From: Tomocerus qinae
Lineage: Eukaryota; Arthropoda; Collembola; Entomobryomorpha; Tomoceridae
Assembly (NCBI GenBank): GCA_020055645.1
Contig: CM034550.1
Coordinates: 21,918,880 to 21,982,879 of the forward strand
Length of the DNA stretch: 64,000 nucleotides
Direction of reading: 5' to 3'
In this document: positions 61,529 through 64,000 of the stretch, in pieces
Numbering within the stretch: position 1 is the stretch's first letter
Layout of the letters: every line of letters starts with the position of its first letter
Translations under genes and position numbers: made by a program
The notes under the pieces: generated by a model
What the model was told of the DNA's origin: nothing
The model's input: the letters and a program-made list of their open reading frames with translations, nothing else
Databases searched by the model: none

Positions 61529-63923
61529 GTATAATGCACTTTCATACATTTTCTTCCATATTTAATGTTTGCCCGCATAATTCAGCACATCAACATTTCG
61601 TTACATTGTTGATTGTTACGTGCGCCGTTATTTGATCAGCTGACTGGTAGCTGGTAGGAAATTCCTTTTATCAGTCGAATTTCATTACTTTTTTATTGTT
61701 GTAACTTCATTTCACAATTTTTTGGTGTCGTACGTTATGTTTTTTAGCGATCCTTTCGGTGTAGTGTCAAGTGTTTAGAAGAGTGGAAACATTAATTTTA
61801 TAGGCGGTTTGGGTTGAATTTAGACAGCGGTACCTCGTTACCGTTGTTACCGACGTTACCGTTGTTACCGCCAATCGCCAGCGGTAACACATCAGTAGCG
61901 GTAACAGCGGTAACAGCGGTAACAAGGTACAAGCACCACCGGTAACATCGGTAACGACTGAATGCATTTTCGTTACCGGTTGGGTTGCTGCAAACGGGAC
62001 GCAGTAAGCAATTCTAAATTTTTTTCCCAATGCAAAATCGTACTCAAATTTTTCTAAATATTTTCAAAACTAGTCACTATTTGCCTCTTTTTTGACCTAA
62101 CCTAATAAAATTGAAACAACCAAACATTTATTATATTCATTTTTATTAGGTTAGGTTAGAAAAAAGGCAAAAATAGTGACGGGTGGCTTAAAAAGTGATT
62201 AGTGATTATACACTGAAGAGTAAATTTGTCATTCTTACATTGGGAAAAGAACTTGGAAAAATTTGGGTACGATTTTGCATTGGGAAAAAAATTTAGAATT
62301 GCTTACTGCGTCCCGTTTGCAGCAACCCAACCGGTAACATCGGTCACGAAAATGCATTCAGTCGTTACCGATGTTACCGGTGGTGCTTGTACCTTGTTAC
62401 CGCTGTTACCGATGTTACCGCTACTGATGTGTTACCGCTGGCGATTGGCGGTAACAACGGTAACAGCGGTAACGAGGTACCGCTGTCTAAATTCAGCCGG
62501 CGGTTTGATTGAGAAATACAAAAAATGTTTTAATGGAATTGTGTGCTAATATTTTTTATTAATAGACCTAATTAATGCTTTCAGGTGGTGGCCCTTCAGG
62601 TCCAGGAAGAAATTCATTTATGGGACGAGGAGGAGGTGGTGGTGGTGGTGGCGGCATGGGTGGTGGTCACTACAATGACCGAAGAAATTTTCACAACTCA
62701 AATGATGGTTTCGATGGTCCAATGAATAAGAAACAGAAAGTTTTGTCGCCAGATGTGAGTAGTTTGGTTTTATTTTCTATTCAAACATTCAGGATGTATA
62801 TGCACGTGATCGTAATAATTGATGGTTGACTATTTTTATTTTAGCAACGAATCATGGAAAAAATTCGTTCTCTCCAAGGACCTTCTGCTGATTTACCTCC
62901 TAAGAAATTTGAAGTGAAAAGATTTCTTGCAAACACTAGACTATATGTTGGTAATATCGCTACCGACTGTAGTGAAAATGAACTAAAGGAATTGTTTGTC
63001 GCGTATGGAGAAATTGACGAATTGTTCGTCAATAGGGAGAAAAACTTCGCCTTTCTTAAAATGGTTAGTTTTGTATTATTTGCTGAGGCTAAATGAAATA
63101 TATTAAACTAAATTAAAATGTTTACTAATTTACTCAAAATGATGATACAACGGAATTACCGTTTGAAACCAATGAAAAACGTTCTGTGGCTGCTATTTTT
63201 AGTTCTGATTGAAATTATTTATGCAATATATTAGTGTTTTTATAAATATAGGGTTCTTGACAACTTTTGTTTTTGTTTTTTAAGGATTTTCGAACAAGCG
63301 CTGAGAAAGCTCGAGCAGAACTGGACCAAAAGAATATCAAGGGTCGCCAAATCAAAGTCCGGTTTGCACCAGCTAATGTGCGAGTAAAGGTTAAGAATCT
63401 AAGTCCCATGGTCTCAAATGAGCTGCTTGAAATTGCGTTCTCCGTTTTTGGAGATGTAAGTTTAAATTAAGAATATCTAATATATATTCTATTTAAAAGT
63501 AATTAAAATGATGATCAAAGGAATTACCGTTTGATACTCGTGAAAACGATATTCTTTGGCTGCTTTTTGTATTCTGACAATTGTATTTTATAATTTATAG
63601 TCCATTTTGAATAGTTGAATGGAACCCTGAGAAAACTGTTAATGTTATTTTTGAATAATTTTTAGATTGAGCGGGCACTTGTGTTTGTTGACGAGAAAGG
63701 AAAATCTCTCTGTGAAGGCATTGTTGATTTCACTCGTAAAAATCACGCAATGGCAGCTCACAACTATTGCCAAAATAAGGCTTACTTCCTAACAACGGAA
63801 TTACGGCCGGTTATAACTGAGATTGGAGAAATGTATGAAGCTGATGAGGGGTTATTGGAAATGAATATCCCCAAAAGAGAATTCAACAAGAATAGGGAGC
63901 TGACGTATTACAAGGCTAGAGAG
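61405..63923 (+). CDS. nonA: nonA/NONO-family DBHS RNA-binding protein, 3'-partial (gene-level entry)
   Basis: DBHS proteins (Drosophila no-on-transient A; vertebrate NONO, SFPQ, PSPC1) are nuclear RNA/DNA-binding dimers acting in transcription, splicing and retention of edited RNA. Exons are 61405-61528, 62585-62754, 62845-63063, 63285-63455 and 63666-63923, all GT/AG and in frame, and the gene continues past the window. The visible 314 residues contain a basic, Gly-rich N-terminus, RRM1 (RNP2 LYVGNI at 131-136, RNP1-like KNFAFLKM at 164-171), RRM2 (from about 204, with VSNELLEIAFSVFGD) and the start of NOPS (LTTELRPVITE). VSNELLE-AFSVFG and LTT-RPV are hallmarks of the family. The coiled coil must lie beyond 64000. 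Two introns carry snoRNA-like sequences and the first intron a fold-back element. Confidence 0.93.
61812..62498. mobile_element. Fold-back DNA element in first nonA intron, 687 bp
   Basis: Terminal bases 61812-61830 and 62480-62498 are inverted repeats with one mismatch (GGTTGAATTTAGACAGCGG type). A perfect 9-bp duplication, GGCGGTTTG, flanks it at 61803-61811 and 62499-62507. Arms of about 245 bp pair with each other and are built from short tandem GGTAACAGC-like units. The centre holds the same core of about 107 bp found twice in the element at 5050-6366. No transposase is encoded. Long open frames through the arms (61767-62030 minus and 62226-62549 plus) are mirror translations of the repeat. 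Confidence 0.87.
62073..62180 (+). repeat. Fold-back core module, nonA copy
   Basis: Bounded by GTCACTATTTGCC and GGCAAAAATAGTGAC, which are inverted repeats of each other. It contains GACCTAACCTAAT and TTAGGTTAGGTTAG, and matches the modules at 5436-5542 (inverted) and 5552-5655 (direct). The two host elements have different termini, so the module is older than, or moved between, the elements. Confidence 0.85.
62585..62754 (+). CDS. nonA: nonA exon, Gly-rich segment
   Basis: The acceptor is ctttcag|gtggtg and the donor is cagat|gtgagt. It encodes a Gly-rich low-complexity run (MGRGGGGGGGGGMGGGHYND), then PMNKKQKVLSPD with a basic patch. Gly-rich N-termini are typical of insect nonA. It ends in phase 0. 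Confidence 0.9.
62845..63063 (+). CDS. nonA: nonA exon, RRM1
   Basis: The acceptor is attttag|caacga and the donor is aaaatg|gttagt. It encodes a linker, then most of RRM1: TRLYVGNIATDCSENELKEL, then FVAYGEIDELFVNREKNFAF. It begins and ends in phase 0. Confidence 0.95.
63134..63212 (+). ncRNA. Box C/D snoRNA, U54/snR77-like, copy 1 (nonA intron)
   Basis: Box C ATGATGA lies at 63139-63145 and box D CTGA at 63205-63208, closed by a TCAA/TTGA terminal stem (63134-63137 and 63209-63212). An internal D'-like TTGA at 63163-63166 follows GGAATTACCG (63152-63161), which is complementary to the invariant 18S rRNA CGGUAAUUCC. The fifth-base rule places methylation on the first U of GGUAA, equivalent to yeast U578 and human U627, which are guided by snR77 and U54. 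A second complementary piece, GGCTGCT (63188-63194), pairs with the adjacent AGCAGCC. Box D ends 76 bases before the 3' splice site, a usual distance for intronic snoRNAs. Confidence 0.85.
63285..63455 (+). CDS. nonA: nonA exon, end of RRM1 and start of RRM2
   Basis: The acceptor is ttttaag|gatttt and the donor is gagat|gtaagt. It encodes DFRTSAEKARAELDQKNIKG, RQIKVRFAPAN, then RRM2 opening with VRVKVKNLSPMVSNELLE and FSVFGD. Both ends are phase 0. Confidence 0.95.
63501..63581 (+). ncRNA. Box C/D snoRNA, U54/snR77-like, copy 2 (nonA intron)
   Basis: Box C ATGATGA is at 63508-63514 and box D CTGA at 63574-63577, with a weak AATT/AATT flanking stem. The guide GGAATTACCG (63520-63529) and D' TTGA (63531-63534) have the same spacing as copy 1, so the predicted 18S target is identical. 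The accessory GGCTGCT (63558-63564) is also kept. Other positions have diverged, which is the pattern of a duplicated functional guide. Box D ends 88 bases before the 3' splice site. Confidence 0.83.
63666..63923 (+). CDS. nonA: nonA exon, rest of RRM2 and start of NOPS
   Basis: The acceptor is tttttag|attgag and the donor is agag|gtatgt. It encodes IERALVFVDEKGKSLCEGIV, completing RRM2, and YFLTTELRPVITEIGE, the opening of NOPS, then NKNRELTYYKARE. It ends in phase 0; the following NOPS and coiled-coil exons are outside the window. Confidence 0.95.
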
Positions 63924-64000
63924 GTATGTTTTTACTTTGCTATCATAATAAAAGCATAATTTTATAGCAATAGCCGAGTTTCTTAATAGCCTCTCCACTG

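Follow-up and report, generated by a model that had tools for sequence, protein, structure and literature searches.

The introns of a nonA-type gene of Tomocerus qinae raise the question of whether they encode small nucleolar RNAs (snoRNAs) for the 530 loop of the 18S rRNA, and whether the presence of such guides in a gene of this kind has a meaning of its own. We analyzed a stretch of 64,000 nucleotides (the window), and some searches covered the 9,021 bases downstream of it or the whole genome. It is very probable that three introns of the gene each encode a box C/D snoRNA equivalent in function to snR77, HBII-135, and snoR77Y; the three would guide the methylation of U582 and provide a redundant dose.

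Three predicted snoRNA copies in consecutive introns

A preliminary description had placed two tandem snoRNAs in successive introns, with the same arrangement of box C, guide, box D', and box D. One pattern fits both of them, and it fits a third copy in the next intron too (Table 1). The anatomy and place of the first two (63139–63208 and 63508–63577) had thus been read correctly; the number had not, as there are three.

The order common to the three copies is box C (ATGATGA), 5–6 nt, the guide GGAATTACCGT, box D' (TTGA), 5 nt, and box C' (RTGAAAA), followed after 8–10 nt by T+GGCTGCT (TGGCTGCT) and after a further 9–10 nt by box D (CTGA). From box C to box D the span is 70 nt in each, and the gap between D' and C' is exactly 5 nt every time, though its letters differ (AACCA, TACTC, and ATGTA). 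Boxes of the RUGAUGA and CUGA type stand near the ends of all three. The internal boxes D' and C', likewise present in 3/3 copies, are both degenerate with respect to CUGA and RUGAUGA; internal boxes of C/D snoRNAs often are. The conserved C' box was absent from the elements that the preliminary description listed. A 4-bp, A/U-rich terminal stem could be read by eye in each copy. The 70-nt cores, folded for minimum energy with the stems excluded, did not take a C/D form.

Table 1. Coordinates of the snoRNA copies, their elements, and the host exons and introns (window positions; those past the window end are window-equivalent)
Feature	Position	Strand	Remarks
snoRNA copy 1	63134–63212	+	Layout pattern match; includes 4-bp terminal stem UCAA/UUGA, by eye, around boxes C/D
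Copy 1 box C, ATGATGA	63139–63145	+	Layout pattern match
Copy 1 D' guide, GGAATTACCG(T)	63152–63162	+	Pairs with 18S 579–588; predicted methyl target U582
Copy 1 box D', TTGA	63163–63166	+	Layout pattern match
Copy 1 box C', ATGAAAA	63172–63178	+	5 nt past D'
Copy 1 putative extra-pairing element, T+GGCTGCT	63187–63194	+	GGCTGCT pairs with 18S 571–577, adjoining the guide site
Copy 1 box D, CTGA	63205–63208	+	Layout pattern match
snoRNA copy 2	63501–63582	+	Layout pattern match; includes 4-bp terminal stem AAUU/AAUU, by eye
Copy 2 box C, ATGATGA	63508–63514	+	Layout pattern match
Copy 2 D' guide, GGAATTACCG(T)	63520–63530	+	Layout pattern match and 18S pairing
Copy 2 box D', TTGA	63531–63534	+	Layout pattern match
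Copy 2 box C', GTGAAAA	63540–63546	+	5 nt past D'
Copy 2 putative extra-pairing element, T+GGCTGCT	63557–63564	+	Layout pattern match
Copy 2 box D, CTGA	63574–63577	+	Layout pattern match
snoRNA copy 3, box C to box D	64083–64152		Layout pattern match; beyond the window end, in the following intron
Host exon	62585–62754	+	Reads through into the DBHS protein
DBHS host exon	62845–63063	+	Translation and domain search
DBHS host exon	63285–63455	+	Translation and domain search
DBHS host exon	63666–63923	+	Translation and domain search
Host exon	64233–64419	+	Past the window end
Host intron with copy 1, phase 0	63064–63284	+	76 nt from box D end to 3' splice site
Host intron with copy 2, phase 0	63456–63665	+	88 nt from box D end to 3' splice site
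Next host intron, with copy 3, phase 0	from 63924 (window part 63924–64000)	+	80 nt from box D end to 3' splice site

Predicted target in the 18S rRNA

At the 530 loop, the 18S rRNA of this genome reads CCAGCAGCCGCGGTAATTCC, and the partner of the guide in it is CGGTAATTCC, positions 579–588. The fifth nucleotide upstream of D' TTGA is an A that lies opposite U582 of this 18S; the rule that the methyl group is placed at the fifth nucleotide was taken from PMC8162545. The predicted site is, by this rule, the U beside the decoding-centre G, equivalent to U578 of yeast, which agrees with the site first proposed. In E. coli numbering, this U and G are U531 and G530.

The guide duplex, taken apart, had a computed energy of −17.7 kcal/mol (11 pairs). 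Among the matches listed for each copy, the guide site was the best 18S complementarity. Copy 2 had two rRNA-side matches outside the 18S with 10 Watson–Crick pairs, equal to the guide, but out of guide register. Of the three rDNA places that we looked at, two contain the target word, and the third is interrupted at that point.

Stable RNAs of the C/D class are bound by fibrillarin, Nop56, Nop58, and 15.5K. Each snoRNA would be freed from its intron after splicing of the host pre-mRNA and would form a C/D particle, in which the D' guide, paired with 18S 579–588, would direct fibrillarin to 2'-O-methylate U582 beside the decoding-centre G. The three copies would come from duplication within the host gene and would be redundant in dose.

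Known guides for this site and Rfam matches

Equivalent sites and guides are Um578/snR77 in yeast, Um627/HBII-135 in humans, and Um580/snoR77Y in Arabidopsis (PMC3511168, Table 1; PMC8817022, Table 1), and Um571/CD21 in Dictyostelium (PMC8817022, Table 1). Um575 in Neurospora and U588, with HBII-135, in chicken are on record too. Sites common to yeast, human, and Arabidopsis served in PMC3511168 to predict those of the last eukaryotic common ancestor.

In the cmscan search, copy 1 matched snoMe28S-Gm3113 at 22.9 bits and then snoR77Y at 17.9 bits (second among the snoRNA rows), both below gathering. The best match of copies 2 and 3 was snoR77Y (23.8 and 25.7 bits, respectively, over the whole model and below gathering); copy 3 also matched the Tetrahymena RNA TtnuCD7 (25.6 bits), whose consensus carries the same guide word as the copies. 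The gathering score of Rfam snoR77Y (RF01178) is 52 bits and was reached by none of the three (17.9–25.7 bits), so we class them by guide and target and not as members of RF01178. There were no gathering-level Rfam matches in the window, which holds copies 1 and 2, and this includes human HBII-135 (RF00571), also named SNORD65, and yeast snR77 (RF01181). Below gathering, neither RF00571 nor RF01181 appeared at the copies among the best matches of each clan. RF01178 had no match in the whole genome at E 0.001, and the control genomes likewise gave none, which makes this blank uninformative. A tRNA scan of the window found none. Matches of miRNA type within 61827–62495, all below gathering, lie on foldback DNA and were not taken as miRNAs.

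The host gene

The predicted host protein matched Pfam RRM_1 in two stretches (7.9e-25) and NOPS (3.1e-12). Its best solved chain was SFPQ (6.7e-58), and its best solved relatives were SFPQ, PSPC1, and NONO. By these domains the host is a DBHS gene (nonA/NONO/SFPQ/PSPC1) of nonA type, and the earlier naming stands.

C/D assembly is reported to work best about 50 nt upstream of the branch point (PMC8162545). If the branch point is placed some 25–35 nt from the 3' splice site, the box D ends, at 76, 88, and 80 nt from the splice site, fit this optimum.

No nonA or DBHS gene was found as a snoRNA host in titles and abstract openings, whose coverage of the literature is incomplete and does not establish the host as undescribed. 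Words beginning with nonA were also absent from the main texts of PMC13228274 and PMC4430873. Neither the host nor the tandem copies are exceptional, since the intronic location of snoRNAs across eukaryotes is not evolutionarily stable (PMC3511168) and 59.5% of the human C/D families with at least two expressed members have all of them in one host gene (PMC8178906).

Conservation of the copies and their decay in a paralogous gene

We compared the elements and the spacers of the three copies, scoring gap columns as mismatches. Elements matched at 40/41 positions between copies 1 and 2, 41/41 between 1 and 3, and 40/41 between 2 and 3, and spacers at 21/34, 23/29, and 20/33, respectively (Fisher p = 1.3e-4, 3.6e-3, and 5.3e-5). 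The one difference in the elements is an A/G in C'. It had been proposed that only the words complementary to the 18S are kept and that the rest has drifted. The constraint on the rRNA-pairing words and the drift of the spacers are borne out; the drift is uneven, and the C' box is kept too.

A second DBHS gene occurs on the minus strand of contig C1. It is stop-free in the four exons compared, and over 277 codons of these exons the pairwise dN between it and the host gene of the window (C5) was 0.058 and dS 0.358 (dN/dS about 0.16). This fits purifying selection on both DBHS proteins; the ratio is pairwise, covers four exons of the C1 gene, and does not assign selection to one branch. The snoRNAs fared differently in C1. 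In the first matching intron, a relic of copy 1 keeps D', C', box D, and the flanks, but its box C is altered, and the start of the guide and GGCTGCT are gone. In a relic of copy 2, in the second matching intron, the guide is split by a 99-nt foldback insertion that is flanked by AATT at either end; GACTGCT takes the place of GGCTGCT, and 10 nt separate the end of box D from the 3' splice site. Copy 3 was not found in the third matching intron.

The C1 relics of copies 1 and 2 each resemble their own counterpart, from which we infer that these two copies predate the duplication of the DBHS gene. At 13 unconstrained positions, counted by eye and post hoc and compared without an outgroup, copies 1 and 3 differ at 6, and copy 1 and its C1 relic at 0/11 (Fisher p = 0.016). 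This hints that copy 3 may also predate the gene duplication and have been lost from C1 afterwards.

Boxes have been lost in the duplicate gene from introns that can still be aligned, the kind of loss that the preliminary description had looked to as counter-evidence; the snoRNAs are whole in C5. Such a pattern is as expected if one source of the snoRNA suffices, and the decay in C1 speaks for selection on the C5 copies. An alternative is that not all three copies function as snoRNAs and that the rest are duplicates on their way to decay. C/D families often have redundant members, and decay of these very snoRNAs is seen in the C1 paralogue. We nevertheless consider this doubtful, because each C5 copy keeps every element with the one A/G difference in C' and all three have the box D end 76–88 nt before the 3' splice site.

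Predicted pairing of GGCTGCT with the 18S rRNA

Besides the guide, GGCTGCT pairs with AGCAGCC at 18S 571–577, next to the guide site. For G578, between the two, a G-U pair is possible either with the U that follows the guide or with the U that precedes GGCTGCT, and with this pair 18 adjacent nucleotides of the 18S are covered. Taken apart, the duplex of the extra element had a computed energy of −13.6 kcal/mol (7 pairs). With 9–10 nt between GGCTGCT and the downstream box D, the element is not in the register in which box D would place a methyl group. We therefore read it as a putative extra pairing that adjoins the guide site, in preference to the role first proposed for it, in a second methylation guide. 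GGCUGCU would pair with 18S 571–577, and with the G-U at 578 a run of 18 consecutive nucleotides would be held.

It is quite unlikely that each RNA has another methylation guide at box D, independent of the first. GGCTGCT does pair with the 18S, and in copies 1 and 3 the fifth nucleotide before box D falls within a weak match to the 28S (11 pairs with three G-U and 10 pairs with two G-U, respectively). That nucleotide, however, lies outside the GGCTGCT duplex; none of the best 18S matches (at most five per copy) was in the D-box register, and copy 2 had no in-register 28S match among the matches listed, the 28S scanned being a partial sequence. We rejected a second D-box guide on these grounds, the 28S matches of copies 1 and 3 being weak and the best 18S matches out of register.

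In dinucleotide shuffles, some 7-mer that pairs with the 20-nt flank in the 18S occurred in 539, 746, and 1016 of 20,000 (2.7–5.1%), and GGCTGCT itself in 209, 320, and 530 of 20,000 shuffles of the C'-to-D segment. At the 2.7–5.1% rate, the extra element is persuasive by its retention in all three copies and not from one copy alone. In both the snoR77Y consensus and the fungal Afu_300 consensus, UGGCU stands a short way ahead of box D, so the extra pairing may be old in part.

A bolder reading is that the RNAs are bipartite clamps on 18S 571–588 that would methylate the decoding centre and also help it to fold, with the UGGCU part as old as the guide (from the plant and fungal consensuses), and that after the host duplication one gene copy kept the guide duty and the other the protein alone. 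We put this forward as a tentative idea that probably goes too far.

Relation of the snoRNAs to their host

The preliminary description had seen in this locus a tie between an rRNA modification and a splicing-factor gene. The evidence turns against it: the C1 paralogue, with its low dN/dS, has lost the snoRNAs, and snoRNA intronic location is unstable (PMC3511168). With the compared exons of C1 open and its snoRNAs broken or missing, guide and host protein look separable, which speaks against a necessary tie of the rRNA mark to the function of the splicing-factor gene.

The snoRNAs might instead act in cis on the splicing or expression of the host, the rRNA match being secondary. The host protein belongs to the RNA-binding proteins and is a relative of the splicing factor SFPQ, and intronic snoRNAs that act on their host have been reported (PMC11028025, PMC10324135). 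This is highly improbable here, since the conserved words are rRNA-pairing words and C/D boxes, and the C1 paralogue, with four exons open and a pairwise dN/dS of about 0.16, indicates that such a gene can do without them.

Rarity in the region and in the genome

The full layout (box C, guide, D', and D) occurred three times on the plus strand and never on the minus strand of the window and the 9,021 bases downstream. The 15-mer of guide and D' (GGAATTACCGTTTGA) had three matches in the 334 Mb of the genome (three forward and none reverse), all inside 959 bases, where they fall in successive introns of a single gene. As a control, the reversed 15-mer also had three matches (one forward and two reverse), so the argument against chance is the clustering in one gene and not the count.

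Looser patterns gave more matches. The guide followed by NNTGA matched six times in the genome (reversed control, nine); three matches were in the host gene, and for the other three a box C was missing from the preceding 50 nt. TGATGA followed by the guide matched 13 times (reversed control, two): three in the host gene, eight with one identical 34-nt sequence, and two single ones. None of the 10 outside the host gene was in the guide+NNTGA set; the neighbourhood was inspected for the two single matches. A BLAST search with copy 1 returned the three copies and nothing else, and with copy 2 the relic on contig C1 as well. Chance or repeat-derived similarity without an RNA gene is a negligible prospect: five of the eight generic C..D skeletons in the region lie elsewhere than the three copies, but the full layout is confined to three places of the region and the 15-mer is found nowhere else in 334 Mb.

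Comparison with known systems

With three intronic snoRNA genes as the preferred reading, a widely conserved guide for the decoding centre is placed in a DBHS gene. The C1 paralogue serves as a natural control, in which the compared exons are open and the snoRNAs broken, and it suggests that guide and host protein are separable. The constraint on the guide, the boxes, and the extra-pairing element is visible inside one genome.

The target U is the same as for yeast snR77, human HBII-135, and plant snoR77Y (Um578, Um627, and Um580). With the plant snoR77Y consensus, the copies share the guide word GGAAUUACCG before D', the C/D anatomy, and UGGCU before box D; D' is UUGA here and CuGA there. Unlike snR77, HBII-135, and snoR77Y, the guide occurs here in three copies, in three introns of one DBHS gene. 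In fungi, the gene is in the snR78–snR72 cluster (PMC3596301), and in chicken in intron 4 of the mRNA CR391615.

In SNORD16 and SNORD68, looping of the snoRNA lets another part of it reach the rRNA close to the guide duplex (PMC6124571). The putative extra pairing is alike in having a second rRNA-pairing stretch near the guide duplex, and is known here from sequence alone; this stretch lies 1 nt from the guide site and abuts it if the G-U at 578 forms.

As in the human C/D families with a single host, the copies are spread over different introns of one host; here the host is a DBHS gene, and a paralogous host has lost its copies. A guide for this site of the decoding region is known from yeast, plants, and humans, and the genes predicted here, classed by guide and target, would be a tandemly repeated guide of snR77/HBII-135 type in DBHS introns.

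Dispersed rDNA sequences

In the Tomocerus qinae genome (G000), 18S rDNA is dispersed over contigs C1-C5, for example at loci L005-L010. A search with an 18S 5'-end probe gave 30 matches on these five contigs, and nearly the whole probe was covered in 28 of them. Two of the copies, L005 and L007, were compared across a 3.1-kb stretch, of which 1.5 kb lies upstream, and showed 98-100% identity per 100-base block.

One dispersed 18S copy (L009; C5, - strand) has an interruption of ~0.8 kb between 18S positions ~569 and ~612. It coincides with or adjoins the 530-loop site that is the predicted target of the snoRNAs in the DBHS introns.

The 28S probe (111 bases) yielded 164 candidates in the same genome; 31 of the 40 scored matches span only its first 77-81 bases. 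These short matches have a nearly common end point, as if the 28S fragment had been carried or cut there by a mobile element.

Foldbacks and repeat-like matches

Farther upstream in the DBHS gene, one intron contains a large foldback with GTTACC-rich arms (table). In the DBHS paralogue on C1 (L028), the intron matching window positions 63456-63665 carries a 99-nt foldback insertion within the guide of the copy-2 relic, flanked on either side by AATT.

The pattern TGATGA..GGAATTACCG had eight identical 34-nt matches on C1, C2, and C3, six of them paired with ~7.6 kb between members; the eight look like termini belonging to a repeat family. The region also holds five further generic box C..box D skeletons, picked up by pattern alone (table).

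Foldback arms and generic box C..box D skeletons
Feature	Window position	Strand	Details
Foldback arms	61812-62498		133 nt (97%), 93 nt (95%) and 50 nt (92%)
Skeleton	23068	+	pattern alone
Skeleton	35371	+	pattern alone
Skeleton	36344	+	pattern alone
Skeleton	43738	+	pattern alone
Skeleton (one in region)		-	pattern alone
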